A program made the translations under genes and the position numbers. The notes beneath the pieces are model-generated. The model saw only the letters and a program-made list of their open reading frames with translations. It had not been told where the DNA came from and did not search any database. A stretch of DNA of 64,000 nt from Nocardia sp. NBC_00565 (GTDB lineage Bacteria > Actinomycetota > Actinomycetes > Mycobacteriales > Mycobacteriaceae): assembly GCF_036345915.1 (NCBI RefSeq), contig NZ_CP107785.1, positions 4,092,001 to 4,156,000 of the forward strand, given 5' to 3'. Below, one piece after another: positions 26,800 to 45,358 of this stretch (the stretch's first letter is position 1; each line of letters starts with the position of its first letter).

Positions 26800-26803
26800 C
26801 CGG

Positions 26804-26831: not shown

Positions 26832-26862
26832 CAGCGACACGCACGTTCCCGGTGCTCGCTTC

Positions 26863-26901: not shown

Positions 26902-26919
26902 TGTCTCCCTGGAACCCAG

Positions 26920-27257: not shown

Positions 27258-27812
27258 ATGTCCGAGGAACTGGACGACATCGGCCGGGAAACCGCGGCCA
27301 TGATGAGGACTATGTTGCAGCTTGCGACCCTGGTCGCGCTGCGGACCCGGGAGCGTGGTCAGAAAGAAGCCGAGGCTCGCGTCAAGGTCACCGAGGCCCG
27401 TATCAAGGAGGCCAGGGAGCTCCAGATCCGTGAGGCCCGAGACGCCAAGGCGAAGGACCCACGCAACCTCGAACTCGCACGCATGGTCGAGAAAACGGTT
27501 CCGGCCAAGGGTATTTCGTTGGAGAAGGATCGTTTCTCCGCACAGGCCGAAGCCAGCCGGATGGCCGCCACGGCCTCCGCCCAGGCCAAACCGCTCATCC
27601 GTTACGACTCCGCGGAACGCCGGATGGCCATCGCGGCACATCTGGCCCGCATCGGTATCGCACCGGAGTTGGCGGCGGTGCGGATGCTCATCGAAGTAGG
27701 CCAGGCCCAACCGCCCGAAGAAGCGGTTCGCATCCGTGACGAAGCGACCCGCGCCGCCGCGGCACGAGGCCGGGAACAGGAAGCACGCGGCTTGGAACGC
27801 GTGCGGCAGTAG
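27258..27812 (+). CDS. charged coiled-coil protein at the border of the secretion cluster, unknown function
   Basis: 184 residues from ATG with GGGGAG upstream. Residues 5-75 and 145-184 are long, highly charged helices (EAEARVKVTEARIKEARELQ, AARGREQEARGLERV) likely to form coiled coils; no signal or membrane segment. It faces the T4SS-like operon across a 12-bp-stem terminator. Its place beside a DUF4913-TraG pair is where plasmid elements often carry a mobilisation gene, but I see no relaxase histidine cluster or nickase motif. Not recognised. Confidence 0.65.
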   Translation: MSEELDDIGRETAAMMRTMLQLATLVALRTRERGQKEAEARVKVTEARIKEARELQIREARDAKAKDPRNLELARMVEKTVPAKGISLEKDRFSAQAEASRMAATASAQAKPLIRYDSAERRMAIAAHLARIGIAPELAAVRMLIEVGQAQPPEEAVRIRDEATRAAAARGREQEARGLERVRQ

Positions 27813-27834
27813 CCGATCCGGCAGCAGAAATCGA

Positions 27835-27862
27835 AAACGCCCGCTGATTCCAGCGGGCGTTT
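27835..27862. terminator. bidirectional intrinsic terminator
   Basis: Perfect stem AAACGCCCGCTG / CAGCGGGCGTTT with a 4-nt ATTC loop, then CGACTTTT on the plus strand. It ends both the coiled-coil gene and the 17.5-kb minus-strand operon. Confidence 0.9.
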
Positions 27863-27877
27863 CGACTTTTCAGGGTC

Positions 27878-28264
27878 TCACATACGGAAGTCACCGATGG
27901 TCGGATCGCCGAACAGCCCCTGTGCCGGGGACTTCAGCGGCAGCGGGCTCAGCATGTCCTTGTGGCCGTTGCGCACACTGCAGTACTTGAACGGCCCGCG
28001 CGGATCGAACAGCTTGGCCATATGCGGATCCGCGTGGTCCAGGAACCAGACACTCAACCCGGTGCTCGGATCCAGCCGGTAGTGTTCCCATGCCCGCCAG
28101 AGCGCGTCCAGCCGGGCCACCGCCTCGGCATGCTTCCACCACTCCGGGCACCACACCGTTTCACTGATGTCGGTGACCTGGCGCCGGTACACCAGACTGA
28201 GGTAGTTCTCGACGAACTCCACCACGTTGGTGTAGATCATGGGCTGTTGCTGCTGTTCGGTCAC
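27878..28264 (-). CDS. DUF4913 family protein, last gene of the secretion operon
   Basis: 128 residues. Motifs TVWCPEWWKHAEAVARLDAL, WRAWEHYRLDPSTGLSVWF and HADPHMAKLFDPRGPFKYC are the hallmark of DUF4913 (PF16259), a family found mainly on actinobacterial plasmids and conjugative elements next to TraG/TraD-like coupling proteins and relaxases (family knowledge). The start codon overlaps the stop of the VirD4-like gene by 4 nt. Probably a small adaptor of the coupling protein; this is inference. No membrane segment. Confidence 0.88.
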   Translation of the reverse strand: MTEQQQQPMIYTNVVEFVENYLSLVYRRQVTDISETVWCPEWWKHAEAVARLDALWRAWEHYRLDPSTGLSVWFLDHADPHMAKLFDPRGPFKYCSVRNGHKDMLSPLPLKSPAQGLFGDPTIGDFRM

Positions 28265-30084
28265 AGCGGCCGGACCTCCTCGACTTGGCCGTATTCAGGT
28301 GGCGGAGCAGCCTTGGTCAGATTGGTTGCGGGGAACAGATCGGCGATCTCGGTCTTGCGCCCAGGAAGATGATGCGAGATCGACTTCTTCACGTCGTCAG
28401 CGTAGTCACTCTCCCACCATGGCTGAGTTCGGATGAGCACTGCGGGCTGGCCGGAGGTGAAGACGATCGCGCGGCCCTGCGGGAGTGTGGTCAACGCGTT
28501 GACGGTGAAGGTCTTCGATGAACCGAGCGAGCGCGAATAGCTCTTGCCACCTTTGGATTCCGATACCGAGGCGGAGATGGCGTCGTATTCGCCGATCGCC
28601 TCGGAGCGGTCACGCAGGAAGTTCATATCGTCGACGCCGGGGCCGAGGACTTTGACATTGGCCGCCGACCACAAGGCGAGCATGCCCGCGTCACCCCAGC
28701 AGCGCGCACCCTGTGCCCAGGACTGCAACACCGTCATCACCACGATGCCGCGCGAACCCAGGTGGCTGTACTGCTTGGGAAGATCCTTCCAGCGCACCAC
28801 GTTCGCCGCTTCGTCGAGCACGGCGAGCAAGGGAATGGGGAGGCGGCCGCCCGGCGAGCGAGACGCCTTGCGCATGGCCACATCGATGACCGCCTCGGTC
28901 AGTGCGCTCACCAGCGGCCCCGCCGAGCCGCGACCTTCCAGCGAAAGGCTGTAGAGAGTGCCGTTGTTCTCGATGAAATCCAGTTCGTCGAACGGCACCC
29001 GGTTGTCGCCGGGCAGGACCCACGAGTGCACGTACGGCATCTGCAAGCAGCGGATCATTTTCTTCGCGGTGCCGTAGATACCGCTCTTGGTCCTGGGGTC
29101 GGAGTTGTACTGCATCGCCAAACCGGCAGCGGTGTAGTGCTTGCTGGCACCGCGCAGCAACTCGATGGGCTCAGCGTCACCGGGATTGGTCACCCAGTCC
29201 CACACCTGGACGATCGGGCGACCACCGACCGCGGCGGCCAGGAACAGCGCGGCGAGTAGATCCTCGGCTTCCGGGTCGAAGAACACATCCTGCTTGTTGT
29301 CCGAACCGTCATCCGCGTCGGCGAAGTGCCCGGCCAGCCGCGCGGCCCGCCCCTCGGCACCCTCGTGGTAGGGGTCCACCCAAGCCAGCGGATCCCAGTA
29401 CCAGGTGGGCTCTTCACCGGCGACACCCTGCGGATCGAAGACGAAGGTGGGACTTCCCTTCTGCTGCCGCACATCTCGGGTCGCGTCCACCACGTCCCGC
29501 TTGTTCGAGGTGGACAGCACCGGCCCGATCGCGGTCAGGATCGCCGGAATCACCCGAGAGGTCGACTTGCCCTGCCGAGGACCCCAGATGTCCAGGTGCA
29601 GATCCTCATAGGAGCCGTACAGCATGACGCCATCGGCGACGCCGACGCCGATCGGCACGCCGGGACTGTCGTTGTAACCGAGTTGTACGCCGAGCATTTC
29701 GGCCTTCGCCCGCACACCCGCCTCGGTGAGCGAGGCGATGGCACTGCCGTTGCCCATCACATCGGCCTTGTCGTCCACCGCGAGACGCCCTTTGGACCCG
29801 CGGGCCTTCAGCTTCTTTCGGATGACCAGGTAGGCGATGACGGCCGCGATCACGAGCAGCACGATCACCGTCGATGTCCGCGGCCAATGCAGTTTGCCCT
29901 TGGCGAGATCGGCGATGATCGCGATCGGGTTGAGCGGAACGTTCTGCGGTGTGACCGCCATCGCATTGCCGAGATGCAGGGCCAGCCACAGGGTTCCGAG
30001 CACGGCGAAACCGGCGTAGATCGCGTACAGGGTGAGGTCGGGTCCGACCGCGGCCGGATCCTGCACCTTCTTGTTTTTCGCCAT
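28261..30084 (-). CDS. VirD4/TraG-like type IV coupling ATPase
   Basis: 607 residues. Two N-terminal membrane helices (~17-37 and 70-88), then an ATPase domain with Walker A GPRQGKST at 168-175 and Walker B LLAVLDEAANV at 419-429, plus GSRGIVVMTVLQSWAQG typical of the TraD/TraG all-alpha region and hexamer core. Coupling proteins bring substrate (DNA-protein or protein) to a type IV channel. Translationally coupled to DUF4913 (4-nt overlap). No relaxase is encoded nearby, so the substrate is open. Confidence 0.9.
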   Translation of the reverse strand: MAKNKKVQDPAAVGPDLTLYAIYAGFAVLGTLWLALHLGNAMAVTPQNVPLNPIAIIADLAKGKLHWPRTSTVIVLLVIAAVIAYLVIRKKLKARGSKGRLAVDDKADVMGNGSAIASLTEAGVRAKAEMLGVQLGYNDSPGVPIGVGVADGVMLYGSYEDLHLDIWGPRQGKSTSRVIPAILTAIGPVLSTSNKRDVVDATRDVRQQKGSPTFVFDPQGVAGEEPTWYWDPLAWVDPYHEGAEGRAARLAGHFADADDGSDNKQDVFFDPEAEDLLAALFLAAAVGGRPIVQVWDWVTNPGDAEPIELLRGASKHYTAAGLAMQYNSDPRTKSGIYGTAKKMIRCLQMPYVHSWVLPGDNRVPFDELDFIENNGTLYSLSLEGRGSAGPLVSALTEAVIDVAMRKASRSPGGRLPIPLLAVLDEAANVVRWKDLPKQYSHLGSRGIVVMTVLQSWAQGARCWGDAGMLALWSAANVKVLGPGVDDMNFLRDRSEAIGEYDAISASVSESKGGKSYSRSLGSSKTFTVNALTTLPQGRAIVFTSGQPAVLIRTQPWWESDYADDVKKSISHHLPGRKTEIADLFPATNLTKAAPPPEYGQVEEVRPL

Positions 30085-30132
30085 GTCTGCCTCCTGTTAG
30101 GACCTGGCTATGCGGTTATCGCTGATGCGGGT

Positions 30133-30777
30133 TCACCGGAATGCGTCGAGCCGCCAACCCTCCGGTGTGCGCACGACGGTCGCGATGACCGTCGCGGGCG
30201 GCAGGGATTCCTTGCGCCCGTTCGGGTAGACGACCGTCTGCTCGATCCCGATCTTGAACTGCTGGACGTTCGGGTCGGCATTCGTGGGCGGCCGCTCCCC
30301 CGACGCGAAGGCGAAGGCCTCGATATGCGCCTGCGCCTTGGCCCAGTCCGCCCACTGCAGCGTCGCTTTCGGTGTCTCCACCGCGGTCGGCGTGCTGTCG
30401 AGCATGCGGATCAGGCTGGGACCCAACCATTTCCGCGCGCGCGACAGCGACGCGCCCTGGGCCTCGGTGGCGGGCTGCCAGGAGTAGATCTCCTTCAGCG
30501 CGGCCACCGCGACGCCGTCGGGCGTCACCGGATCGGGTGCGGGCACCCCCTCCAGCAATCGGGTCGTGGACGTGGGCGGATGCGGCGCACCGGAACCGGT
30601 TTCCCCGTCCTTGCCACCGCACCCCGCAACCAGCGTCGCAACGCTCACCACCAGCATCACCACCAGTTTCGCGCGTGCATTGTTATTCAAGGCTAGCCGC
30701 CGCGACCGACACTTGTGCGGTCCAATTGCTGCCCGCGCGTCGGCGTGTCCGCTCGGCGTGGTCGCCGTTGTCGTCAC
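30133..30777 (-). CDS. predicted lipoprotein with NTF2-like (VirB8/TcpC-type?) domain
   Basis: 214 residues if started at GTG 30777, whose GTGA overlaps the stop of the upstream hydrolase gene. A hydrophobic segment ending in lipobox LVAGC is at ~39-53; the N-terminal arm before it is unusually long, so a later TTG near residue 30 may be the true start. The mature part (VAVAALKEIYSWQPATEAQ, KIGIEQTVVYPNGRKES, ATVVRTPEGWRLDAF) looks like a small alpha+beta NTF2 fold, as in the assembly factors of type IV systems; fold is inferred only. Confidence 0.65.
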   Translation of the reverse strand: MTTTATTPSGHADARAAIGPHKCRSRRLALNNNARAKLVVMLVVSVATLVAGCGGKDGETGSGAPHPPTSTTRLLEGVPAPDPVTPDGVAVAALKEIYSWQPATEAQGASLSRARKWLGPSLIRMLDSTPTAVETPKATLQWADWAKAQAHIEAFAFASGERPPTNADPNVQQFKIGIEQTVVYPNGRKESLPPATVIATVVRTPEGWRLDAFR

Positions 30778-32456: not shown

Positions 32457-32496
32457 CGCGTCCCCGGCGGCGCCGTTCGACCATGGGCCGAGTAAT

Positions 32497-32805
32497 TCAC
32501 GTGCGACGCCGAGATTCGTTGAGGGTGTCGGCGAGGGTGCGGTTCATCTCCGCGGCGGCGGCCAATTGTTGTTGCAGCAGCGCCACTTTGCGGCGCAGCG
32601 CCGTCGCATCCAAGCGCTCCAGACTCGGTCCCTCGGCGGCGCGCACCCAGTTGCGCACCGAATTGGTGTGCACGCCGATCTGCTCGGCCACCAGCCGGCA
32701 CGCCTCCGATTCGCTGCGTAATTTACCGGTAAGTGCGATGACCTGCTCGACCGCGGCCTTGCGCACCTCCGGCGACACTCTCCGATAGGACCGGTGCGGC
32801 ATCAT
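32497..32805 (-). CDS. IS3 OrfA-like helix-turn-helix protein within the operon (domesticated transposase fragment?)
   Basis: 102 residues from ATG at 32805, eight bases after GGAGG. Residues 1-60 are an HTH_Tnp_1 domain (RRVSPEVRKAAVEQVIALTG, EQIGVHTNSVRNWVRAA) and 62-95 a leucine-zipper-like helix, as in OrfA of IS3 elements. There is no OrfB, no terminal inverted repeat and no target duplication in sight; it is colinear with and embedded in the T4SS-like operon, 52 nt after VirB4 and 41 nt before the hydrolase. Either a relic insertion or a co-opted regulator. Confidence 0.8.
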   Translation of the reverse strand: MMPHRSYRRVSPEVRKAAVEQVIALTGKLRSESEACRLVAEQIGVHTNSVRNWVRAAEGPSLERLDATALRRKVALLQQQLAAAAEMNRTLADTLNESRRRT

Positions 32806-32857
32806 GCGCCCCACCTCCCACAGACAACCACCGGTCTCCATCTCGGCGCGAACCCCA

Positions 32858-35182
32858 TCATGCGGCGCTCCCACTCGGGGAATCGCCACCGCGCGAAGTA
32901 GATTCGGTGAACTCGGAGAAGCGCTGATTGGTTTCGTGGATCCCACTCTCCTTCTCGGACAACGTGAATTCCATGTGGAACGGGATGCCGGGGCGGCGAT
33001 CCTCACCGATCTTCAATAGGAACTTGCCGGTGCCCGGCGGTGACGGACGTTGCTGGCCGGGCTTGAGCGCCTCACCCGTCAACGCTTGCGGTGCGGACCA
33101 TCCGGTCACCATCTCCTCCTCGGCGGATGTGAACGGAACCACGCTGTCGAGTCGCTTGATCTCCTCGCCGGGTAGCGCGCCGAATATCTTGGCGCGCGCT
33201 CGTTCGAGGAAGCCGAGCGCCTTGGCGATGGCGGCTTCCGATCCCAATGCTTGCAGGTCCTTGATGGTGTGGCTGATCATGATCAGCGCGGTGGCGATGG
33301 TGCGCTGCAGGCGGGTCAGCTCGTCGACCCGGTCGACCATGAAGTCACCGAGGCCGAGCACCTGCCACAGCTCGTCCATCACCACCTGGAAATACCGCTG
33401 CGGGCCCATATCCGCGTCGGCCAGCACATGCGCGGCCTCCACCGAGGCGAAGCCGTCGGCCCAGCAGGCCAGCATCACGGCGGCCTTGAGCTTCTTGTCA
33501 CCGGTGGGGATGTGCGAGACGTCGATGCAGACCGCGACGGCGCCGGTATCGATCGGAACGGTGGTCTGCCCGTTGAAGATCGCGCCGAACGGGCCCTGGG
33601 TGAGTGCGCGCAGCGAACGGCGCAGACCCTTGATGGCGACCTGGAATTCGTTCGGGTCGTCGGCGCCCGCGTCGAGCATCAATTCCTCACCGCCGCCGAC
33701 GATGACCTCGAGCAAATTCTCCATGATCGGCGGCTGGTCCGGAGTGTAGCCGCTGCCCGGCCGGTAGAGGATGCGCAGCGCGGTGGCGATCAGCGTCTCC
33801 TCGTAGTCGCGCACCCGCGCGCCGCGGACCAGTTCGACCAGACCGGCGATGAGGGTCACCTGGCGGGCGCGCATATCCTGCAGCACCTGAAGTTGCAGTG
33901 CGGGTAGCTCATCCAGCATCGGCACCACGGAACCGAGCACACCGGCGGCGAGCGGGTTGAGCTTGCCGTGACCGTAGCCCAGGTCGATCACCTGGCCGCC
34001 GACCAACTCGACCATCTTGCGGTAATCGGGCTTCACATCGGCCAGGATCAGCGGGGTGATGCCCTGCGCGATGCCGCCGAGCACGATCCGGCGCACCAGC
34101 GAGGACTTACCGAAACCATTGAGTCCCAAGACGAAAAGGCTAGGCGCGGTGATGAAGCTGCCGCGCAGGAACCAGTTCATCGGGTCGAAGCAGACCGGAG
34201 CGCCGGTGTGCAGATGCGAGCCGAGCGGGGTCCCGATCAACGGCGCGCCCGCGCCGACCGACCACGGCCACAGGCCCGCCACTTGCGCTGTGGTAGCACG
34301 GTATTCGACCGGGCGGCCGACGACGTTCATCCGCCCGCCGCCCGCGCCCATATAGCCGCGATCGGTGAGTTGGGCTGTGCTGCGGTCGAATCCGTCCTCG
34401 AAGACCTGTTCGGCGCGGGCCGCGTAGTTGCGACGGCGGATGTCGTCGGTGCGGATGCGGAAGGTCGCGAAGGCCGCGCGCAGACCGGTGCCTTCGCGGC
34501 TGATCTGCTCCAGCTTGGACCGGGTCACATCGTCGAGCAGGGGCGGACCGGACTGTTTACGCTTGTCCGACCTGGCCTTCGCGCGGCGGGCCGCCTTATC
34601 CATCTGGGGGGTGCCCATCGCGCGATCAGCGGTGTAGTCGACCTTGGCCGCGCGCTGTGCCTCGCGGCTCGTTCTGCCGCCATTGCGTTCCGGTCGTGCC
34701 ACGCGTTCCCCCCGTACCGATCGTTGCGGTGTGCCCTCGCGCGGCGGGCGGGCGGCCCTTGCCGCGTCCGGACGGGGCCGATCGGCCGAAGTCCGCTCAC
34801 CGCGAGCGTTTTCGGGCCTGGGTCGCTGCGCGCGATCGGAGCCCGACTGCGGCCGATCGGCACGGCCACCGTCGGCGTATCCGGCACCGGGACGCGCCCG
34901 TCGCTCGGCCGCCTCGCGCGACGGTCGCCGCTCCCGATCGGACGTCTCGTCCACGCCGGTCCGGTCGCCGCCGCTCACTCGCCCCGCGCCCCGCCCGGAC
35001 CGCCGATCCCGGTCCGGCATCTCCTCGATGCCCGATCGTTCGACGCGGCCGCGTTCCCCCGCCGGGCGGGGCGGCCGACCCTCACCGGTAGGCCGGCCCC
35101 ACGGCTCGTCTTCGGGCCGCCTCTTGCGGCCCACCGGCACCTCGTCCCGTTCGCGCACGGGTGGCTCGTAGTCACGTGCCAT
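32858..35182 (-). CDS. VirB4/TraC-like conjugation-type ATPase
   Basis: 774 residues. The first ~215 are an arginine/proline-rich disordered extension rich in RPxR repeats. The ATPase follows, with Walker A GLNGFGKS at 353-360, Walker B VVMDELW at 600-606 and the family block ADVKPDYRKMVELVGGQVID. VirB4 ATPases energise assembly and substrate transfer of type IV machines at the inner face of the membrane. The SCO6880-family gene ends 8 nt upstream. In this clade the N-terminal half of VirB4 is thought to be a separate protein, the SCO6880 partner (inference from architecture). Confidence 0.88.
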   Translation of the reverse strand: MARDYEPPVRERDEVPVGRKRRPEDEPWGRPTGEGRPPRPAGERGRVERSGIEEMPDRDRRSGRGAGRVSGGDRTGVDETSDRERRPSREAAERRARPGAGYADGGRADRPQSGSDRAQRPRPENARGERTSADRPRPDAARAARPPREGTPQRSVRGERVARPERNGGRTSREAQRAAKVDYTADRAMGTPQMDKAARRAKARSDKRKQSGPPLLDDVTRSKLEQISREGTGLRAAFATFRIRTDDIRRRNYAARAEQVFEDGFDRSTAQLTDRGYMGAGGGRMNVVGRPVEYRATTAQVAGLWPWSVGAGAPLIGTPLGSHLHTGAPVCFDPMNWFLRGSFITAPSLFVLGLNGFGKSSLVRRIVLGGIAQGITPLILADVKPDYRKMVELVGGQVIDLGYGHGKLNPLAAGVLGSVVPMLDELPALQLQVLQDMRARQVTLIAGLVELVRGARVRDYEETLIATALRILYRPGSGYTPDQPPIMENLLEVIVGGGEELMLDAGADDPNEFQVAIKGLRRSLRALTQGPFGAIFNGQTTVPIDTGAVAVCIDVSHIPTGDKKLKAAVMLACWADGFASVEAAHVLADADMGPQRYFQVVMDELWQVLGLGDFMVDRVDELTRLQRTIATALIMISHTIKDLQALGSEAAIAKALGFLERARAKIFGALPGEEIKRLDSVVPFTSAEEEMVTGWSAPQALTGEALKPGQQRPSPPGTGKFLLKIGEDRRPGIPFHMEFTLSEKESGIHETNQRFSEFTESTSRGGDSPSGSAA

Positions 35183-35189
35183 GTATCGC

Positions 35190-36686: not shown

Positions 36687-38167
36687 CGCGGAATGGTGCT
36701 CCTCCCGAGGTCGGGCGAACGATTCGCCCAGCGATCGCCTGCCACGTCACCCATTGCTTGATCGGCCCGAGTCAGCGGCGCGGTCGCGGCGCGGGCCGCG
36801 CCGATCGCACCCGCCGCCCTGGACGCTCCGGACGGTACTCCCGAGCCGCCCTGTGGGACGGAGGCGCGCGGAGGTCCGCCCGCCGGGGCTCCGCCACCAC
36901 CACCGCCGCCACGCGGCGGGACCGGACGCGGCGCACCACCACCGCCGCGCGCACCACCCGCGCCACCCGGCGGCCGCGGACCGGTGGAGGAGCCGCTGAC
37001 ATAGCCGGCTGAACCCGGCGCGGCGGTCTTCGTCGCAACGGCCTTGGTACCCATCGCGCCCAAAGCGCCCACCGCGAGCAAGGTTCCACCGGTCGCGGTG
37101 AGACCGGAACCACCGCTGCCCACGGTCGCGACCGCGGGCGTGACCAGACGCATCAGTGCGGGCAGCACGAACGCGACACTGCACAGCAGCACGATGGCGA
37201 CCAGCATCCGTTGTGCCTGTTCACCTTCGGGCAGTCCACCGGTATCGGTGAGCGAATCCACATGGCCCGCGGTGGTGAACGCGATCATGTAGACGATGGC
37301 GGCCACCGGTTTCCACAGCATGAACGCGATGATCCAGCTGATCAGCTTCTGATACGACTGCTTGCCGACATTCATCCCGGAGGCGGCCGCCGCCAACGGC
37401 AGCACACCCGCCGCGATGATCAGCAGCCCCTGACGGACGATGGCGAGGATGATCTGCGCGAGCGCGCCCAGCAAACCGACGATCGCGATGATCAGCACCA
37501 GACCCGGCGAAAACGCCTGCAGCTTACTGGTTTTCACCATCAGCTCGGCCAGGTCCTTGGCGTTGCCATTGGTCGAGTCGTTGATGATCCACTCGGAGAA
37601 GCGATCCGAGGCCTGGGAGCCCGCGACGATAACCGCGCCGAGCATCCAGGAGCTGAACACGACACGGGCGAACATGCGGAACGATTCGGCCGCCTCGTTC
37701 ATCGCGGCACCCCGTCTGGCCTCGGCCAATCTGGCGCCCGACAGGATCACCGAGGCTATCAAGAGCAATATCTGCGCTTGATAGGTGTAATCGTTGATCT
37801 TCACGAACAACGAGCCCGAATCGCTGGTCGCCTCGTTGGGGACCTTCATCCAGAAGGTCAGCGCGAGGATGATGGCCTCACCGAGGCCGTTCATCAGCGA
37901 ATCGACGACCTTGCCGAAGGTCGAGTCCCAGGCCTTGTCCTTGACCGCGGTCGCGGCGCTGCCCGGGTGCGAGGCGGCGTTGCCCGCCTTGCATACCGCC
38001 GACGCGGCGTCGCCGAGGGATACCCCCGGCAGACCGACATTGTCGAGGGTGTCGTGCAGTTCGTTGCATGTCTCGTCGAAACCGTACGTCTGGCCGTAGG
38101 CCACCGTCGGTGTCGCGATCATCACCGTGAAGATGACCGCGAGAATCGTGACTACACGCCTCACCAT
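36683..38167 (-). CDS. VirB6/TrbL-like polytopic membrane protein
   Basis: 494 residues from ATG at 38167, which overlaps the stop of the preceding gene (ATGGTGA); a GTG three bases later is also possible. A signal peptide (VVTILAVIFTVMIATPTVAYG) leads a short Cys-containing extracellular loop, then about six helices (for example AQILLLIASVILSGARL, GLVLIIAIVGLLGALAQIIL, LLIIAAGVLPLAAAASGM). The last ~100 residues are a Gly/Pro/Arg-rich cytoplasmic tail. The helix pattern with a central AQIILAIVRQGLLIIA block fits the VirB6/TrbL channel component. Confidence 0.82.
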   Translation of the reverse strand: MVRRVVTILAVIFTVMIATPTVAYGQTYGFDETCNELHDTLDNVGLPGVSLGDAASAVCKAGNAASHPGSAATAVKDKAWDSTFGKVVDSLMNGLGEAIILALTFWMKVPNEATSDSGSLFVKINDYTYQAQILLLIASVILSGARLAEARRGAAMNEAAESFRMFARVVFSSWMLGAVIVAGSQASDRFSEWIINDSTNGNAKDLAELMVKTSKLQAFSPGLVLIIAIVGLLGALAQIILAIVRQGLLIIAAGVLPLAAAASGMNVGKQSYQKLISWIIAFMLWKPVAAIVYMIAFTTAGHVDSLTDTGGLPEGEQAQRMLVAIVLLCSVAFVLPALMRLVTPAVATVGSGGSGLTATGGTLLAVGALGAMGTKAVATKTAAPGSAGYVSGSSTGPRPPGGAGGARGGGGAPRPVPPRGGGGGGGAPAGGPPRASVPQGGSGVPSGASRAAGAIGAARAATAPLTRADQAMGDVAGDRWANRSPDLGRSTIPR

Positions 38168-39012
38168 TGTGTCCACCCCTCGATGCTGCGCAGGGAATCG
38201 ATCTGGACTTGCTGTTGTCCGCTCACCGCGGTGAGCTTCCAATCGCCTTCGCGCCATACGACTGCCAGGCGCATGCCGACCCATGTTGGTTGGCCATCAG
38301 CTGTTTCTCGGGCCTTTCTCGCAAACTGGACGATCGCGGAATCTTCGGTGTAGCTCTCGATCCGGAAGGCATCCGAAGCGAACAGCAGTGGTCTCAACTT
38401 GTCCGGCAGCCGATCCGAGACCTTGCCCTCGGCCACCAGTCGGTCATAGTCAGCCAGGTACTGCGCCGTGACCTCGACCAGCCGCAGCAGCAGATCCCGG
38501 TCGCGCGGGTTGGCATTGGTGCGCCAGTAGATCTGTTCGGCCGCGAGCGCCGCGCCCTGTGGCGTGTGAGCGAATCCGACCGCGGCCTTGCCGTCGATGC
38601 GCGCGGGGCCCTCGGAAGTGGAGAACCGCACCACCGGTCCACCGAATACGCGCTGCCATACGCCTTCTCCGCTGGCGGGCTGCGGCGCGGCGGTCTGCCA
38701 GGTCGGTGCGCCCGGCTGCTGTTGCAGCGCCGGATTCTGTTGCAGCGCAACGCCGGTGCCGTTGTTCGGGATGTCGATCCGGCGGCCGAACATATCGGCC
38801 TCCGGATTGCCGAAACCCGCCGCACCGGCATCGGGCGCGTTCTCCGAACTCGTCCCGGTCTTCGATACCTGGTCGCCCCCGGCGGCGTTATCGCGCATCG
38901 CGATAACGGTCACGACGACCGCGACCACCACGGCGAGCACCGCGCTGATGCCGAGCACGGCGAGCGGCGAACGTTTCTGTGCCGGACCCGATCCGGGCCC
39001 CAGGCTCACCAT
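38161..39012 (-). CDS. single-pass extracytoplasmic T4SS-like component, paralogue A
   Basis: 283 residues from ATG 39012 (7-nt overlap with the upstream gene; GTG 39021 possible). Membrane helix ~22-43 (AVLGISAVLAVVVAVVVTVI), linker with FGNPEADMFGRRIDIPNN, then a ~170-residue domain (GVWQRVFGGPVVRFSTSEG, GFAHTPQGAALAAEQIYWR, ASDAFRIESYTEDSAIVQF, RLAVVWREGDWKLT) ending GWTQW. Strongly similar to the next gene. Architecture fits VirB8/TcpC-like scaffold proteins with an NTF2 fold (inferred, not proven). Confidence 0.75.
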   Translation of the reverse strand: MVSLGPGSGPAQKRSPLAVLGISAVLAVVVAVVVTVIAMRDNAAGGDQVSKTGTSSENAPDAGAAGFGNPEADMFGRRIDIPNNGTGVALQQNPALQQQPGAPTWQTAAPQPASGEGVWQRVFGGPVVRFSTSEGPARIDGKAAVGFAHTPQGAALAAEQIYWRTNANPRDRDLLLRLVEVTAQYLADYDRLVAEGKVSDRLPDKLRPLLFASDAFRIESYTEDSAIVQFARKARETADGQPTWVGMRLAVVWREGDWKLTAVSGQQQVQIDSLRSIEGWTQW

Positions 39013-39821
39013 TTCGTCCACCCGTTCATGGATTCGATGTACTCGGTCTGGGTGTTGTTGGAGGTGGCGGGCTTCAGCCGCCAGTCACCCGCGTCCCACA
39101 CCATGACCAGTCGCAGCGCCGCCCACAGTTGCTTGCCATCGACCACCGGGCCGCGGGCGGCGAGTTGGATGATCGCCAGATCGTCCGCGTAGTTCTCGAC
39201 CTTGAACGCATCCGAGGCGACGAAATAGCGAGTTACCTTCTCCGGCTGCTGTTCCGGCAGTTTGTCCTGGGACAGCGCCTTGTCGTAGGCGGCGATCTGC
39301 TGGGCCGAGACACGCACCTGGCGGACGTAGAGGTCGCGGTCGGCGGGGCGGGCGTTGAGACGGTAGGTGATCTGGGCGGCGGCGAGCACCGCGCCCTGGG
39401 GAGTGTGCGAATAGCCCACGGCCAGACCGTCTTCGATGTGGGTGGGGCCGTCCGAGGTGGAGAACGGGACCGAGGCGCCGTAGACCCGCTGCCAGCCCTG
39501 CGGTGCGGTGGTGCCCTCCGGAGCCGCGGTCAGCCAGTCCGGATCGGTCGGCTTGCGCTGGCGCGTCGGATCCTGCGGAAGTGGTTGTCCGGCAGGGTTG
39601 TTCGGGATGTCGACGCGCCTGCCGAGGATGTCGACCTCGGGCGTCCCGAAGCCCTCCCCGGCGGCGCCGACGGTGGCGGGGGCACCGTCGCCGCCGGATG
39701 TCGCGTCGTCCCGACCGAAGTACACGAACAGACCCACGACCACGATGAGCACCACCACGGCCGCGGACGCGATGACACCGAAGGAGACGCGATCCCGCGC
39801 GTACGGCTCCTTCACACTCAT
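39006..39821 (-). CDS. single-pass extracytoplasmic T4SS-like component, paralogue B
   Basis: 271 residues. Helix ~13-34 (VSFGVIASAAVVVLIVVVGL), linker with FGTPEVDILGRRVDIPNN, and a domain with GWQRVYGASVPFSTSDG, AVGYSHTPQGAVLAAAQI, ASDAFKVENYADDLAIIQL and RLVMVWDAGDWRLK, ending GWTKW. The shared blocks and the identical end (GWTxW, with the next gene's ATG embedded in TGGTGA) show a tandem duplication with paralogue A. The 73-nt gap upstream holds an inverted repeat (GAGCGAA 39853-39859 / TTCGCTC 39876-39882). Confidence 0.75.
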   Translation of the reverse strand: MSVKEPYARDRVSFGVIASAAVVVLIVVVGLFVYFGRDDATSGGDGAPATVGAAGEGFGTPEVDILGRRVDIPNNPAGQPLPQDPTRQRKPTDPDWLTAAPEGTTAPQGWQRVYGASVPFSTSDGPTHIEDGLAVGYSHTPQGAVLAAAQITYRLNARPADRDLYVRQVRVSAQQIAAYDKALSQDKLPEQQPEKVTRYFVASDAFKVENYADDLAIIQLAARGPVVDGKQLWAALRLVMVWDAGDWRLKPATSNNTQTEYIESMNGWTKW

Positions 39822-39894
39822 GACTCCGCCTCGCTGACGCTCGGCTCCGTCATGAGCGAAGCACGCTGCGACATGATTCGCTCGCTGCGCTCCC

Positions 39895-40515
39895 TCATGC
39901 CGGTGCCTCCAATTTCACTATGTTCGTAGGTAATTCATCGATCGCCTCGATAGGCCGTGCGGTCGAATCGGGGTCGGGCAGCCGTAACCTCCAGTCGTTG
40001 CCGAACCACTCGACGGTGGTGTGGTTCACCGCCTTGGAGTTGTCCGAATACTCGGTATAGACGTCCACGGCGGATCTCTGGTCGGTGTAGCCGGTGATCC
40101 TGTAGCCGAGCAGTCTCGGCGCGTATTCGGTCGCGGCCGGGCCGGTGATCGACAGCTGCAGCCGGTTGACCGACCACTCGTCTCTGGCCTTGTCCGGCAC
40201 GATCTCGTTGCGCACGATCTCGGGCCACTGACTGTCGGCGGCCACCGACAGGCGCACCGTGTGCACGATCGCGGCGAGGGCCGCGCCGGCCGGTGAGTGC
40301 TCGAAACCCGTTGCGGCGCCGTCGGCCAGCTTCTTGGGCCCCTGATCGGCGCTGGGGAGCGCGACGCCCTGGAACGGCTGCCACCGCACATGCGTCGGCG
40401 CGGCCGACAGATTCGGGCCGGAGTCGCCGCCACCGCCGCCACAGCCGACCGCCGCCAGCAATAGCGCGGCACCGACCGCACCAGCCGCGGGCTTGCGGAT
40501 TAGTGTCGAGTTCAT
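39895..40515 (-). CDS. lipoprotein paralogue C of the T4SS-like components
   Basis: 206 residues from ATG 40515 (MNSTLIRKPAAGAVGAALL), with lipobox LAAVGC and a Gly spacer. The domain repeats the plan of paralogues A and B (ATGFEHSPAGAALAAIVHTVR, then a divergent middle and EWFGNDWRLRLPD) but lacks the FGxPExDxxGRR linker, and it is lipid-anchored instead of single-pass. The longer frame beginning at 40698 runs over the pilin-like gene and is rejected. Function inferred only from context. Confidence 0.72.
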   Translation of the reverse strand: MNSTLIRKPAAGAVGAALLLAAVGCGGGGGDSGPNLSAAPTHVRWQPFQGVALPSADQGPKKLADGAATGFEHSPAGAALAAIVHTVRLSVAADSQWPEIVRNEIVPDKARDEWSVNRLQLSITGPAATEYAPRLLGYRITGYTDQRSAVDVYTEYSDNSKAVNHTTVEWFGNDWRLRLPDPDSTARPIEAIDELPTNIVKLEAPA

Positions 40516-40538
40516 CCCAGGGCCGTCCCCATCCCGGT

Positions 40539-40823
40539 TCACGTCGGCAGGAACGCCAACGCGATCCCCGAGGCCGTGCTCGCCACCGCCGCCCCGAGCA
40601 GACTCATCAGTACGCCGTGCGAGGCGTCGTTCATCGCCAGATCGCTCCGGAACGCCATCCACAGGCGGCCGGCGGAGACGATCATCCACGCCAGGCACAC
40701 CAGCAGCACGAACCAGAGCAGCCAGTTCAGCAGCTGCATCAGCGGTTGCAGCACTTCGGCGGGCATCTGCTTGTAGGCGAGCAGTTCCGCGGCCGACATT
40801 CGCACGGTAGACATCGCCGACAT
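40539..40823 (-). CDS. small two-helix membrane protein, pilin (VirB2)-like, copy 2
   Basis: 94 residues from ATG 40823, sharing one base with the stop of the upstream gene (TGATG); a start at the internal MSTV is possible. Two helices: ~25-50 (NWLLWFVLLVCLAWMIVSAG) and ~65-90 (VLMSLLGAAVASTASGIALAF), joined by a short polar loop. Size, topology and place in the operon fit the VirB2/TrbC-type pilin group of actinobacterial systems, though no signal peptide is clear. Similar to copy 1. Confidence 0.68.
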   Translation of the reverse strand: MSAMSTVRMSAAELLAYKQMPAEVLQPLMQLLNWLLWFVLLVCLAWMIVSAGRLWMAFRSDLAMNDASHGVLMSLLGAAVASTASGIALAFLPT

Positions 40824-41119
40824 CAGGTCCCGATGACGGCGTTCATGATGGTGCCCGCGCTGGTCGCGACGACGCCGCCGATCATGGCTCCGGCCACCAT
40901 CTTCGGCGATTCGAGCCCACCGCCGGTCCACTTCTCCCATGCGAACTTGCCGCCCGCATAGGTGATCCCGCAGATACCGGACAGCAAGACGAACCAGGTG
41001 AGGTACCGGACCAGCTGCAGGATCTTCTCCGAGCCGGGAGGCGCCTCCGGTGTCGGGTTACCGACTTGAGCGAGGACAGTGCCGTACGTGTCCTGCACGG
41101 CGAGGAGAATCATGCTCAT
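40823..41119 (-). CDS. small two-helix membrane protein, pilin (VirB2)-like, copy 1
   Basis: 98 residues. An N-terminal hydrophilic arm contains PTPEAPPGSEKILQLVRY, then helices at ~38-58 (LTWFVLLSGICGITYAGGKF) and ~72-96 (MVAGAMIGGVVATSAGTIMN). The FVLL and G(A/V)VA(S/T)(S/T)A blocks are shared with copy 2, which suggests duplication. GAAAGG lies upstream of the start. A 10-codon frame (41180-41148), whose ATG overlaps the DUF6668 stop, sits between the genes. Confidence 0.68.
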   Translation of the reverse strand: MSMILLAVQDTYGTVLAQVGNPTPEAPPGSEKILQLVRYLTWFVLLSGICGITYAGGKFAWEKWTGGGLESPKMVAGAMIGGVVATSAGTIMNAVIGT

Positions 41120-41179
41120 CGGGTGCCTTTCTCGAGTAGGAGTGGTCTCAACGGTCCGGTACGTCGGTCATGGTGTGCA

Positions 41180-41818
41180 TCATCGTTCCTCCTCGAAAGA
41201 CGAACCGCTGTCCAGGTTTTCGCGTACGACCGCAACGATATCGGCGCCCAGTTCCCGAACCTCCAGCGGAACCTCGTCGAGCGGGTCGATCTTGCGCTTC
41301 TTCGGCGGTATCGCGTCGCCGGGAGTCCAGACGGGGAGCTTCTCGGGTTCGACGAGGGTCCATTCCTCGTACCACGGGATCTGCCAGAGCTGGCCCGCCA
41401 GGGAGCCGACCACGTCGCGGTAGCGGCGGATTTCGGCGGGCAGACGGCCGGGCCGCGCGGCCACGGTGACGAGGCCGAGGACTTCGCAGGAGCCCGCGAA
41501 ACCCGAATGGTGTTGGCGCAGAAGATCATGGGCACGCGTGAGCCCGGCGATGGTTTCCCTGGCCACGAGAACGACGAAGGGGGACTCGCGGTCGAAGACG
41601 CCGGGCCAGCGGCGGCCCGAATCCGCCGCGGGCGCAAGCACATGCGCGAGGGTACTGGCTCCGGCACCGCCGTGCACACCTAGCAGCCACCACAGCGGCG
41701 CCCGGCCGACGCCGGGTACGGGACGGTCCCAGATGGGCGCGCGACGAGACTCCGGTGGGGCGACCACACCGGCCTGGGCGGCTTCGGATCGACGAGGAAG
41801 ATTCATGGCGGCCGTCAT
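41180..41818 (-). CDS. DUF6668-like P-loop protein with degenerate Walker A
   Basis: 212 residues. LLGVHGGAGASTLAHVLAP (residues ~45-63) resembles the deviant Walker A of ParA/MinD ATPases but the nucleotide-binding Lys is absent (GGAGAST instead of GGxGKT). The middle (FVVLVARETIAGLTRAHDLL) fits a CpaE/MinD-like fold. The C-terminus is charged. It overlaps the next upstream gene by 4 nt. Role in the system unknown; a partner of the following ParA-like protein is plausible. Confidence 0.72.
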   Translation of the reverse strand: MTAAMNLPRRSEAAQAGVVAPPESRRAPIWDRPVPGVGRAPLWWLLGVHGGAGASTLAHVLAPAADSGRRWPGVFDRESPFVVLVARETIAGLTRAHDLLRQHHSGFAGSCEVLGLVTVAARPGRLPAEIRRYRDVVGSLAGQLWQIPWYEEWTLVEPEKLPVWTPGDAIPPKKRKIDPLDEVPLEVRELGADIVAVVRENLDSGSSFEEER

Positions 41819-42693
41819 GATGCCACTCCGGCGAGCAGCCGCCCATAGGCCCGGCGCGTCTCGGGAGCCAGCGACGCGTGGCGAACGAGTTCACCGCGCG
41901 CCAGATGCGGATCGTACGGAATCTCCCTGATATCACGCACCCAGCCGGACAGATGCTCACGCAAATGGTCGGCAACCTGCGAATCCACGCCCGACAACTG
42001 GTGCGAGACAACGATTGTGGTATCGCCGACGATGCCGCCGCCCGGCCCCTCGGCCGAATCGCCGAACTGGTCGTCGAGCCATTCGAGGGTGACCCGCAGC
42101 CGGTTCGCGGCATCGGGGCGCGCCGGAATGGCAAGTACCAGAGCGACATCCGCGTCATCGAGCAATGGCCGCAGCTGCCGTCCGGCAATCGGGTTGCCGC
42201 CGTCGTAGACCGCGGTGTACCCGGCGTCATTCACCGCGCGCGCGACTGTGAGATACGTGGCACGCCGACGCAGCGGCGCGGCATCGCGCCACAGCAGTCC
42301 GATGCCCGAACTCGCCTGCGACAGGCACTCCTTCAATGGCGCGGGTTCGTCGTCGCCGCGCCCGTACAACCACGACTGCAGGCTGATCGGATGCAGGTGC
42401 TCATCGGCCCCGCGCAACGCCAGATCGCTGCCCGCAGCCGTCGCGTCCACCGCCACGGTCGAGGTACCCGCCATGCCCAACTCCCCCGCGATACCCAAGA
42501 CCGTGGTGGTGGTCCCCGCGCCACCGCAGCCGCCGACCACCAGAATCGAGCGCTGCGCCGGTTCGAGGGATTCCGTCGAACCGCCCTTGCCACGCCGCAG
42601 CCGCACCACCGGAGCCTTCGAAGGCGCAGGCCGGTTCGACGAATCACCCTCATCGGGCGCCTCGTCGAGCCAGCGGCTCCAGTCGTCTCCCAT
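41815..42693 (-). CDS. ParA/MinD-like protein with degenerate P-loop
   Basis: 292 residues. After a ~48-residue charged arm, ILVVGGCGGAGTTTTVLGIA aligns with the KGGxGKTT P-loop but lacks both signature lysines. VAVDATAAGSDLALRG aligns with the switch region of MinD-type ATPases and VALVLAIPARPDAANRLRV with the later strand. Such proteins position machinery on membranes or poles; without the lysines hydrolysis may be lost or use another mechanism. It overlaps the DUF6668 gene by 4 nt and follows the single-pass gene by 19 nt. Confidence 0.72.
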   Translation of the reverse strand: MGDDWSRWLDEAPDEGDSSNRPAPSKAPVVRLRRGKGGSTESLEPAQRSILVVGGCGGAGTTTTVLGIAGELGMAGTSTVAVDATAAGSDLALRGADEHLHPISLQSWLYGRGDDEPAPLKECLSQASSGIGLLWRDAAPLRRRATYLTVARAVNDAGYTAVYDGGNPIAGRQLRPLLDDADVALVLAIPARPDAANRLRVTLEWLDDQFGDSAEGPGGGIVGDTTIVVSHQLSGVDSQVADHLREHLSGWVRDIREIPYDPHLARGELVRHASLAPETRRAYGRLLAGVAS

Positions 42694-42712
42694 CGCTATC
42701 AGCTCTCCCTAT

Positions 42713-43651
42713 TCATCCGGCCGCGACGCCCGTGACGAGCGTGCGACCGCCGACCACCGCCGTGGTGACGGTCTGCTTGTTGTACGTGGCGGGCGCGCCG
42801 CCGGGCCGGTACTCGGTGACCTCGACCGAATACCGGTTCTCGGTGATCGTCTGGATCCGCACACAGTGCGTGGTGCCCACCGGAATGGTGTCGATGCCGT
42901 GCTGGATCGTCGCGGCGGGCGAGATATTCGAATCCGGCGCCACCACCGCCCGAACCCGCTCGCCGGAGCGCTCCACGTAATAGGCGTATTGAAACGCCAA
43001 GATCGCATCCGGCCCGGAGTCGGTGCCACCGGGTTCGGCGCTGCGCACGATGCGGTCGCCGCGCTCGGTAGGGCAGTCCGCGATGCCGCGGGATTGGACG
43101 CTGGCCGCGGTGAACCGCATCGAGGGCACGACCGGCGCGGCGGCACCGCGATCACCGGAGGACCGTAGTAGGAAGATCGCGACAGCAGCGGCCCCGGCCA
43201 GCAGCAGTACGGCCACGATGAGCACCGCGACGACACGGGCCCGACGCGTACTCGGGTGATTGCGCGCCTCGTGACGTAAAGCGCGCGAGGCGCGGGCCGA
43301 TCGCTCGGCCGGGCCGTCGTCGTAGTCGTCCTCGGGCCACGGAAACTGTACGAGTTCGCCGGCGCGCGGCGCGATGTAGTCGTCATCGGGGCCGGGGGCA
43401 CGCCCGGCCACCCAATCCGACCACCCGCCAGTGAATTCGCTCTGATGGGACGCCAGATCGGCCGGAACCTCGTTGCGTGCGCGCACCTCTTCGGGATCCT
43501 CTTCGCGAATGTAGTGCGGGAAGCGGGCCGGACCGTCGTCGTCCTCCGGCACCCGCAAGCCCGATTCCCTGTGTGGTGACGGGGTCGGTGCACCGGCCTC
43601 CGGCTCCAGCGCGCCATACCAGCGTGACAGCTGTTTGTACGACTTCAACAT
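42713..43651 (-). CDS. single-pass membrane protein of the secretion cluster, unknown function
   Basis: 312 residues from ATG 43651 with GGGGGG ahead. A long acidic cytoplasmic arm (1-135), one helix (~140-162, VVAVLIVAVLLLAGAAAVAIFLL shortened), then a ~150-residue extracytoplasmic domain with two cysteines (RGIADCPTERGDR, TTHCVRIQTITENRYS) and YRPGGAPATYNKQTV. The C-terminal part is predicted beta-rich. It resembles secreted domains of other actinobacterial conjugation clusters, but I cannot name the family. Confidence 0.65.
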   Translation of the reverse strand: MLKSYKQLSRWYGALEPEAGAPTPSPHRESGLRVPEDDDGPARFPHYIREEDPEEVRARNEVPADLASHQSEFTGGWSDWVAGRAPGPDDDYIAPRAGELVQFPWPEDDYDDGPAERSARASRALRHEARNHPSTRRARVVAVLIVAVLLLAGAAAVAIFLLRSSGDRGAAAPVVPSMRFTAASVQSRGIADCPTERGDRIVRSAEPGGTDSGPDAILAFQYAYYVERSGERVRAVVAPDSNISPAATIQHGIDTIPVGTTHCVRIQTITENRYSVEVTEYRPGGAPATYNKQTVTTAVVGGRTLVTGVAAG

Positions 43652-43708
43652 TCCCCCCTTCCCGCAGAGCGAGGCACGTGGTGTCGCATCGTCGGACCCT
43701 CTCGGCGA

Positions 43709-45358
43709 TCAGTTCGTGGAGAACGGGTAGGTGTTGTCGGCGGTGCCGGGTACCACGGTGGGCGGAGTCGACGTCGCGCCGCCGGATGAGGCGCCACCGG
43801 CTCCTGTCCCGAACGGAAATTGTCCCGTACCGGACGAATTCGGCGTAGCCGACGCGCCGGAACTCTCTCCGAAGAATCCAGTGGTCGGCATGGTTGTACC
43901 AGCTCCTGGGGGTGCAGCAGGTCCCTGGGGCGCGCCGCCGCCGCCGAACTTGTCGGCCAGATCATGTGCCACCGCGGCGAACCAATCGGCGACGAATCGG
44001 GTGGGCGCGTCGCCATTGGCGGTGACCGCCGCGGTGCCGTACGCGCCGTGGCGTTGCACGGTGTCCCAGTACCGCACCCAGGTCGTCACATTGAGCAGTT
44101 CGCTGTTGTCGGTGATGTTCTGCACGACCGCGTCGAAGGCTTGGGTGACCAGTCGAACGCCCGTCGTCGGCGGCACCAACTGGGTCACCGCGCCCAGCAA
44201 TTTCGTGCCGAGCAGCAGGATTCCGCCGACCGGATCGGACAGACCCGCGGTGGCCAGCTGAGTGATGGTCGCGGGGTTGATGACCGCCTTGACCACCGTG
44301 GCGACCGCGTTCAGGCCGATCATGCCGACCTTCAGCAGCGCCCGCAGCGCCGCGGGGGCATCGACCGGGGTGCGCGGGTCGGCGGCGTCGGCCAGGCGCT
44401 GGGAGATCGACTTCTTCGGCGAGATCGCCAGATTCGTCAGCGAGTTGCCCTGGACATCCTCGTTGACGACCTTGGTCGCGGTCTTGATCGAGGTGTACGC
44501 CAGCGCCTGGGAGATCGAGACCAGCGAGGCGATCGGGTCGCCGCCGCTGAGCTCGGCCTGGCCCGCGACAGTGGCCACCGCCTTGAGGATCGGTGCGCCC
44601 TCCGGCGCGTCGCAGGCGAGATCGCCTGCGGCACAGAAACTGGCGACCCGGCCGGTCAGCGCGGCGAAGTTGGCGGCCCTGTCACGGTCGGGGCCGATGC
44701 CCCCACCGCTGGCGGGCTCCTGCGGCAGTGCCGCGACGGACGCGATCTGATCGCCCGAGGTGCCCGGCGCGGGATCGGGTGTCGCCTTACCCGGCGAACC
44801 CGGGAACAGCGGCGCACCGGGATTGCGGGTCGGATCGGCGAACAACGCGACCGCGGCGACCTTCTCGGGCGCGATCACACCATGCCCCTGGCCGACCTCC
44901 TGGGCGAAGATCGAGGCCACGTGCGCACCTTGTGAGTAGCCGACGATCGCCAATCTGGTCTCGGCGCAGCGGTCCGCGACATCCTTGGCCATCGAACGCA
45001 GGCGCTCGAGTCCGCCCATCACCGACTGCGCGTACGACACCGTGCCACCGGCGGTGGCGCCGCCGAAGCCGGATTCGTAAGGGACGTATGCGCGGTCGAC
45101 GAGCCCGCGCTCGGGAGCCGCGGCCAGCATCGGCATGAAGACCGTCGATAGCATGCCGGTATCAGTTGTCGGCGCGGCATCCGGTGACGATTCCCCGGTG
45201 CCCTGAATTCCCAACGCGTACAGTGCCGGACAGTTACCGATGGCGAGATTCGTTGTCGGGCCAGCGGAATTCGGTTCCGCTACGGCGGTTCCGGCGGTCG
45301 CCACGACAACGGCGAATGCCACCAGCATCCCCGAGATCCGTGCCGTGTACTTCGTCAT
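43709..45358 (-). CDS. secreted cutinase-family serine esterase at the head of the secretion operon
   Basis: 549 residues from ATG 45358 (an ATG 12 bases earlier is possible). A signal peptide ends near AVA (residue 27). The alpha/beta hydrolase core has nucleophile Ser142 in VGYSQG, Asp246 (FCAAGDLACD) and His437 (QRHGAY). Large helical insertion (~255-425) and a Pro/Gly/Ser-rich tail (~460-549) set it apart from ordinary ~220-residue cutinases. Substrate may be mycolate or other envelope esters (inference from the family in mycolata). First gene of the cluster; no obvious promoter was found. Confidence 0.82.
   Translation of the reverse strand: MTKYTARISGMLVAFAVVVATAGTAVAEPNSAGPTTNLAIGNCPALYALGIQGTGESSPDAAPTTDTGMLSTVFMPMLAAAPERGLVDRAYVPYESGFGGATAGGTVSYAQSVMGGLERLRSMAKDVADRCAETRLAIVGYSQGAHVASIFAQEVGQGHGVIAPEKVAAVALFADPTRNPGAPLFPGSPGKATPDPAPGTSGDQIASVAALPQEPASGGGIGPDRDRAANFAALTGRVASFCAAGDLACDAPEGAPILKAVATVAGQAELSGGDPIASLVSISQALAYTSIKTATKVVNEDVQGNSLTNLAISPKKSISQRLADAADPRTPVDAPAALRALLKVGMIGLNAVATVVKAVINPATITQLATAGLSDPVGGILLLGTKLLGAVTQLVPPTTGVRLVTQAFDAVVQNITDNSELLNVTTWVRYWDTVQRHGAYGTAAVTANGDAPTRFVADWFAAVAHDLADKFGGGGAPQGPAAPPGAGTTMPTTGFFGESSGASATPNSSGTGQFPFGTGAGGASSGGATSTPPTVVPGTADNTYPFSTN

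Follow-up and report, generated by a model that had tools for sequence, protein, structure and literature searches.

The chromosome of Nocardia sp. NBC_00565, a single contig of 9.71 Mb, carries between ppiB and relA a gene cluster that resembles a type IV secretion system (T4SS). The cluster lies within a stretch of 64,000 nucleotides (NZ_CP107785.1, positions 4,092,001 to 4,156,000), which is called the window below and supplies the coordinates used throughout, and it consists of 17 minus-strand genes at 27878-45370, most of them abutting or overlapping, together with one convergent plus-strand gene. None of the 18 frames is interrupted by a stop. The genes named in an earlier reading made from the letters alone (the sequence-only reading) are present in the list of open reading frames (ORFs), several of them with Pfam or NCBIfam support; the placement between ppiB and relA is confirmed by Pfam on both flanks (PF00160; PF04607 and PF13328). 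In the extent given by that reading, 27258..45358, the left end, 27258, belongs to the separate convergent gene.

The motor genes are those of a T4SS. Among Nocardia copies, the VirB4-type ATPase has an intact P-loop in 77/77, and the VirD4 coupling protein keeps Walker A in 74/74 and Walker B in 73/74, the remaining copy being gapped. The ATPase is recognized weakly by Pfam (3e-4, under the cut-off) and by NF045975, a VirB4-like ATPase family of integrative conjugative elements (ICEs; 7e-13, far under the cut-off), and it matches a solved VirB4-like chain, 4ag5, with an E-value of 0.0055. Sequence searches of the PDB with SCO6880 or VirB8 profiles return no credible relative, and neither does VirD4 at E 0.01. 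The VirB6-like, VirB8-like and pilin-like genes were assigned from their place in the cluster, from their counterparts on plasmids and from membrane helices recognized by eye; a Pfam search with these genes gives nothing over the cut-off. The predicted fold of SCO6880 matches both the N-terminal part of T4SS VirB4 and EccE of the ESX system. The gene described in the sequence-only reading as a SCO6880 partner is present, but its predicted fold suggests an N-terminal domain of VirB4 that carries two membrane helices and is separated from the ATPase.

Table. Genes and elements of the ppiB-relA interval and its flanks (window coordinates).
Feature	Position	Strand	Evidence
hisS (left flank)	24530..26095	-	PF13393 7e-39; true start probably inside mechanical ORF
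ppiB (left flank, convergent with cluster)	25954..26799	+	PF00160 1e-27
184-aa gene, convergent with T4SS operon	27258..27812	+	in 48/48 full-length Nocardia loci
DUF4913 protein	27878..28264	-	PF16259 7e-42
VirD4/TraG coupling ATPase with both Walker motifs conserved	28261..30084	-	PF12696 5e-29, PF02534 5e-20
Lipoprotein-like protein, lipobox by eye	30133..30777	-	48/48 loci; plasmid counterpart 27% identical
Cell-wall hydrolase, M23 + SLT + NlpC/P60	30774..32456	-	1e-25, 6e-9, 2e-13; NlpC without catalytic Cys
102-aa helix-turn-helix (HTH) protein, HTH_Tnp_1-like	32497..32805	-	PF01527 6e-6; 48/48 loci; same slot on plasmids
VirB4 ATPase half, charged N-terminal arm	32858..35182	-	NF045975 7e-13, under cut-off; P-loop 77/77 copies
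SCO6880, predicted two membrane helices (VirB3-like) + VirB4 N-terminal domain	35190..36686	-	NF042935, 563 bits vs cut-off 60
Polytopic membrane protein, VirB6-like in slot and hydrophobicity	36683..38284	-	same-slot plasmid gene 41-42% identical
VirB8-like paralogue, duplicate of 39006..39821 gene	38161..39021	-	42% identity to 39006..39821 gene
VirB8-like protein, one transmembrane (TM) helix + NTF2-like domain (predicted)	39006..39821	-	
Third VirB8-like paralogue, lipoprotein-like, lipobox by eye	39895..40515	-	resembles 38161..39021 and 39006..39821 genes
Small two-helix protein, VirB2-pilin-like	40539..40823	-	48/48 loci; helices read by eye
Small two-helix protein, VirB2-pilin-like, very conserved	40823..41119	-	dN/dS 0.092
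DUF6668 protein, P-loop-like GGAG motif	41180..41818	-	PF20373 8e-7
ParA/CpaE-like protein, P-loop without lysine (GGCGGAGTTTT)	41815..42693	-	CpaE-homologue family 0.0016, under cut-off
Rapidly evolving envelope protein, single TM helix read by eye	42713..43651	-	48/48 loci; dN/dS 0.46
Cutinase-family exported esterase (later ATG possible)	43709..45370	-	PF01083 2e-14; 38/48 loci
27-bp conserved element at operon head (putative promoter/operator)	45406..45432	-	
relA (right flank)	45705..48113	-	PF04607, PF13328

The cluster is found across the genus. A SCO6880 orthologue with 89-99% identity occurs in 130 of 150 Nocardia genomes, this one included, and three of these copies are clearly partial (G019, G057 and G141). 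The 20 negative genomes are all drafts of at least 110 contigs, and 19 of them carry the ParA-like gene at 76-93% identity, the exception (G108) being 85% complete; real loss was therefore mostly rejected. Because contigs end just beside SCO6880 in many drafts, its absence from these 20 probably reflects assembly gaps. Among the named loci (80 kept of 107 found, all 80 from Nocardia), the 48 of full length all share 14 genes, which excludes chance: those for VirD4, VirB4, SCO6880, VirB6, VirB8b, both pilins, the HTH protein, the ParA-like protein, DUF6668, DUF4913 and the lipoprotein, the 42713-43651 gene and the convergent gene. Of these 48 loci, 40 have the hydrolase, 38 the cutinase, 45 ppiB and 39 relA within their stretch. 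The mechanical map places relA on the opposite strand in at least two loci. Eight loci (L045, L046, L050, L057, L063, L065, L072 and L073) lack both the hydrolase and the cutinase; the five of them that were inspected have other genes upstream of the cluster in place of relA, and the three of the eight that are included in the SCO6880 tree form one clade.

Outside Nocardia, only one genome (G179; 4.23 Mb) in a family-wide sample of 301 genomes from 31 genera has a SCO6880 orthologue above 63% identity, at 88%. Its cluster also lies between relA and ppiB, and gives no match to the cutinase, the ParA-like or the HTH protein. The ppiB-relA interval was compared in 30 selected genomes, G179 included, that represent 27 other genera. 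All have relA, and in 27 of the 29 relatives besides G179 the 1.5 kb that follow relA contain ppiB, the other two (G173 and G166) giving no match.

The cluster is under purifying selection, strong on SCO6880 and one pilin and weaker on VirD4. Median ratios of nonsynonymous to synonymous divergence (dN/dS, Nei-Gojobori, over pairs with dS 0.15-0.8) rise from SCO6880 (0.077), the pilin (0.092), the HTH protein (0.108) and VirB4 (0.153) through VirB6 (0.190), the ParA-like protein (0.193), the convergent gene (0.211) and the hydrolase (0.235) to the VirB8-like proteins (0.26-0.28), cutinase (0.273), VirD4 (0.299) and the 42713-43651 gene (0.463); the flanking relA, hisS and ppiB have 0.059, 0.115 and 0.392. 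The synonymous divergence of 11 cluster genes follows that of relA (r 0.43-0.81 over 31-33 loci; 0/999 permutations for each), as does that of hisS (r 0.87) and ppiB (r 0.68). As the cluster genes are linked to relA, a block that includes relA may have been replaced jointly. The GC content at third codon positions (GC3) of the cluster genes is 0.78-0.91, compared with 0.86 for hisS and 0.88 for both ppiB and relA.

The searches made at the site gave no sign of mobility. Three relaxase families (PF03432, PF03389 and TrwC) give no match at the locus, no integrase appears among 30 ORFs scanned with Pfam, the window holds no tRNA, Rfam gives no match in 24000-49000, and the flanks at 26601-27900 and 45301-45800 share no att-like word of 11 bp or longer. 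In the whole genome, PF03432 and PF03389 give no match, and the single TrwC relaxase lies at 7.716 Mb, 3.6 Mb from the locus and 37 kb from a second SCO6880 cluster. The marks of an ICE, which are a relaxase on the element and att repeats, an integrase or a tRNA site, were not found here by these searches. These results bear out the sequence-only reading, in which no relaxase or integrase was visible. They also agree with it that the cluster is not a recently acquired ICE, a candidate rejected because of genus-wide retention, neighbours shared by most loci and long purifying selection. The locus fits the description of a MOBless (domesticated) T4SS, with VirB4 and a type IV coupling protein, no match to the three relaxase families, and vertical retention.

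Several features carry signs of remodelling by the host. At the catalytic position of the NlpC domain, the 65 of 66 Nocardia copies that have a residue carry glycine (60) or alanine (5) and never cysteine; the domain has no cysteine anywhere in 66/66 copies and keeps its histidine in one, and G179 also lacks both. The other two domains of the hydrolase retain their motifs, HxxxD and HxH of M23 in 66/66 and the SLT glutamate in 65/66 with one gap. The DCSG cysteine is kept in all seven mobile copies that have the domain (L179, L180, L181, L183, L191, L149, which is near-identical to L181, and the second copy of this genome). An active NlpC in every mobile relative was dropped as a generalization: the domain is absent in five further plasmids (L196-L200) and gapped in L182, L184 and L190, and is thus modular.

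With the first start codon past the preceding stop taken as residue 1, VirB4 has 234-1382 residues before the P-loop in 77/77 Nocardia copies, forming an arm rich in D, E, R and K. The corresponding stretch measures 138-223 residues in 11 mobile copies and 140 in G179, and six further plasmids have 36-180 by annotated start; the smallest core value (234) is close to the largest mobile one (223). The eight loci without hydrolase and cutinase have 534-1382. At the operon head, the 15-bp core of a 27-bp element is found within one mismatch in 43 of 54 loci reaching the region, is diverged in L066 and L075, and is missing in nine, namely the same eight loci and L047. The element has one match in the window and none in 100 shuffles; neither G179 nor the stretches covering eight mobile loci, some of which end near the first gene, showed it. 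A consensus promoter scan gives no match. Its reading as an extracytoplasmic function (ECF)-type promoter, for which we assume the consensus GGAAT-N16-CGTT, is only a lead, because the GGA part varies in L066 and L075 and the CGTT part does not hold in the window itself. Purifying selection, loss of the NlpC cysteine, the charged VirB4 arm and the operon-head element may together be regarded as signs of domestication.

The trees suggest where the cluster came from. In the SCO6880 tree, the window, 18 Nocardia copies and G179 form one clade (support 100/99), whose sister is the second copy of genome G018, at 77% identity (100/98); both lie inside a group (100/100) made up of plasmid-borne or otherwise mobile copies from Rhodococcus and Nocardia, the internal order of which the tree leaves open. 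A quick VirB4 tree places 16 Nocardia copies together (97). From the two trees, a single capture before the Nocardia radiation is the best-supported history, and it was likely shared with G179. SCO6880 relatives occur in 457 of 72,556 plasmid records, the best at 63% identity. The genome under study also has a second, mobile-looking T4SS cluster (G000:C1:7716207-7765000; L145, L146 and L151), with a SCO6880 copy that is 49% identical, at 7.755 Mb; it adjoins an ORF of 2891 residues with weak methyltransferase-like and helicase (DrmD/BrxH-like) matches.

Among the smaller genes, the P-loop motif of the ParA-like protein, GGCGGAGTTTT, is identical in 55/55 copies; this gene and its DUF6668 neighbour (41180-42693) are both P-loop-like and, by eye, both without the usual lysine. 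The VirB8-like duplicate at 38161..39021 is a separate best-hit ORF in only 4/48 loci. The HTH protein was rejected as a stray transposase because it occupies the same slot on plasmids and is present in 48/48 Nocardia loci. The protein of the convergent gene has 225 homologues, and among the 120 listed, the named ones are from Nocardia except for one filed as Streptomyces gardneri; the gene weakly matches a plasmid gene that follows DUF4913 and is co-directional there.

Our favoured explanation, which we consider probable with some reserve, is that the cluster is a domesticated, relaxase-less T4SS predicted to export a host substrate. The mating-pair apparatus of a Rhodococcus/Nocardia-type mobile element would have been captured between ppiB and relA in the Nocardia ancestor and, without a relaxase, MobC, nuclease or integration genes at the site, domesticated; with no relaxase beside a machine that the host seems to have kept and remodelled, an export job for the cell is the probable consequence. 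The parts suggest how such a machine may assemble and transport. VirD4 would select the substrate on the inner side of the membrane, and a split VirB4, with SCO6880 as the membrane-anchored N-terminal half and VirB4 as the ATPase half, would drive assembly of a channel made of the VirB6- and VirB8-like proteins and the two small pilins. The M23 and SLT domains of the hydrolase would open the peptidoglycan, which the cysteine-less NlpC domain probably only binds, and the mycolate layer may be the target of the cutinase. The cargo would most likely be a host protein or nucleoprotein destined for neighbouring cells, hyphae or the surface, and not a plasmid. A broader proposition is put forward more tentatively, and we would not be surprised to see it fail: that Nocardia and one sister genus possess a core, vertically inherited T4SS organelle, which has a promoter element of its own as well as parts that evolved in the host (a VirB4 arm that is disordered and a pseudo-enzyme domain that binds the wall) and which carries host cargo through the mycomembrane, and that SCO6880 reveals a single origin of ESX EccE and T4SS VirB3/VirB4-N.

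Certain observations weigh against domesticated export. In the quick VirB4 tree, G179 is not separated from the mobile copies L190, L191 and L150, and VirD4, the VirB8-like proteins and the 42713-43651 gene are less constrained than hisS, though ppiB is similar. The envelope parts are not indispensable, as the hydrolase is missing in 8/48 and the cutinase in 10/48 full-length loci. In the near-complete genome G057, SCO6880 is split over two overlapping frames (L147 13921-15416), by a sequencing error or a real break. The relaxase negatives cover three families, other types not having been searched, and the machine might serve, in trans, the TrwC relaxases that 21 of 31 near-complete genomes encode elsewhere (G179 and 30 Nocardia, each in 1-5 contigs).

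Such use in trans is itself a rival, in which the machine would move resident elements or chromosomal DNA through relaxases encoded elsewhere, or double-stranded DNA without a relaxase. The retention of VirD4, DUF4913 and the HTH protein would suit it, as would PF03432 relaxases in 5 of the 31 genomes in addition to TrwC; MobA_MobL occurs in 0. Seven of the 31 (G020, G021, G085, G116, G118, G120 and G121), however, have none of the three families, no relaxase match lies within 180 kb of a core copy on its contig in a compilation made by hand, the TrwC gene of the present genome lies 37 kb from the other T4SS cluster, and the site has none of the relaxase, MobC and SNase genes carried by the plasmid version, so that we regard DNA transfer as quite unlikely. 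A functionless, degenerate or repeatedly re-acquired ICE remnant would fit the conjugative-looking origin of 17/17 genes, the loss of hydrolase and cutinase in some species and the broken SCO6880 of one genome; it is largely refuted by purifying selection, by constant neighbours and gene order, by near-universal retention, and by a GC3 within the range of the flanks, as against 0.69-0.80 for the second, mobile-looking cluster, and is very improbable.

Nocardia grow as fragmenting hyphae, and a developmental machine at hyphal tips or septa, aiding hyphal growth, septation or chromosome segregation instead of export, can be imagined by analogy with Streptomyces CmdABCDEF; CpaE/ParA-like and dead-hydrolase parts would suit positioning. 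Deletion of cmdABCDEF disturbs aerial growth, sporulation and chromosome segregation and has no significant effect on the transfer of an SLP2-derived plasmid, according to the available part of PMC2782261. The Streptomyces chromosomal lineage is nevertheless remote in the SCO6880 and VirB4 trees, no VirD4 appears in the 19-20 kb read at three Streptomyces loci, and Nocardia keeps VirD4, the pilins and mostly the hydrolase and cutinase, parts for which a role confined to the cell interior would have no use; a developmental role therefore appears unlikely.

If domesticated export is true, a core, relaxase-less T4SS in a whole mycolic-acid genus would add a path of secretion to Sec, Tat and ESX. 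Some Nocardia species are opportunistic pathogens, and the cluster is present in species regarded as such. The conservation of the motor genes at one locus makes the machine directly testable by gene removal.

No report of a T4SS locus between ppiB and relA is found among the matches listed from the open-licence literature, in which a single paper, PMC2782261 on cmdABCDEF, mentions SCO6880. The available portion of PMC3218068 describes a search for actinobacterial T4SS-type ICEs with TrwC, and its two mentions of Nocardia do not bear on the ppiB-relA cluster; that of PMC2266912 notes VirB4 and VirD4 in Frankia. On the side of type VII secretion, the SCO6880 fold offers a possible bridge to the ESX subunit EccE, and these T4SS and type VII parts may share an origin. 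No other ESX component is found among the Pfam matches of the cluster, with no dedicated EccC or WXG100 test. The accessible text of PMC13037476 does not state this link between EccE and VirB4-N and describes a different one, of TraF with EssB/YukC. The nearest general class consists of the MOBless T4SSs of Guglielmini et al. 2011 (PMC3158045), which, as far as the available text goes, are chromosomal, lack a relaxase and are often proposed to be protein transporters; that account differs in counting 109 in Proteobacteria and in calling T4SSs rare in Actinobacteria.

The nearest studied analogue, by sequence a separate lineage, is the Streptomyces cmdABCDEF cluster (SCO4126-4131), also chromosomal, without a relaxase and with a VirB4/SCO6880-type core; in the part of PMC2782261 available, CmdB is VirB4-like and SCO6878, SCO6880 and SCO6881 resemble CmdB, CmdC and CmdD. 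It differs in having six genes, no VirD4 seen and about 25% identity, and orthology was rejected because the two occupy separate deep branches in both trees. The Streptomyces loci were taken as cmd from their chromosomal position and 92-97% conservation among 120 listed proteins, not by locus tag. Chromosomal VirB4/SCO6880 clusters with about 25% identity (L185-L189) occur in families f19 (Streptomyces) and f20, and that of L188 (f20) also has a VirD4-like gene.

Much closer are the mobile relatives. The sequence-only reading had called the cluster a stand-alone chromosomal system that resembles actinobacterial conjugation clusters and is not known to be described. The likeness, the site and the lack of mobility genes hold, but the cluster does have known counterparts: it corresponds almost gene by gene to the transfer region of a Rhodococcus plasmid minus relaxase, MobC and SNase. 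In R. erythropolis pR09C01 (NZ_AP018734) and its kin, the succession from cutinase through VirB4, the HTH protein and hydrolase up to VirD4 and DUF4913 is almost unchanged, with 63% (SCO6880), 60% (VirB4) and 48% (VirD4) identity to the Nocardia core genes. An SNase gene precedes VirD4 on pR09C01, and a PF03432 (MOBP) relaxase and an annotated MobC lie 8 kb beyond DUF4913, whereas the Nocardia chromosomal site has none of these three. The plasmid NlpC domain retains its cysteine, its VirB4 is short and its 27258-like gene is co-directional; the Nocardia core has a cysteine-less NlpC domain and a long VirB4 arm. The second SCO6880 locus of G018 (L179), the nearest relative of the core clade, has the same three-domain hydrolase but, unlike the core, an intact DCSG cysteine, 223 residues before the VirB4 P-loop and a TrwC gene 40 kb away. 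Such pairs of mobile and core copies would offer a before-and-after view of a conjugation machine turning into a host organelle.

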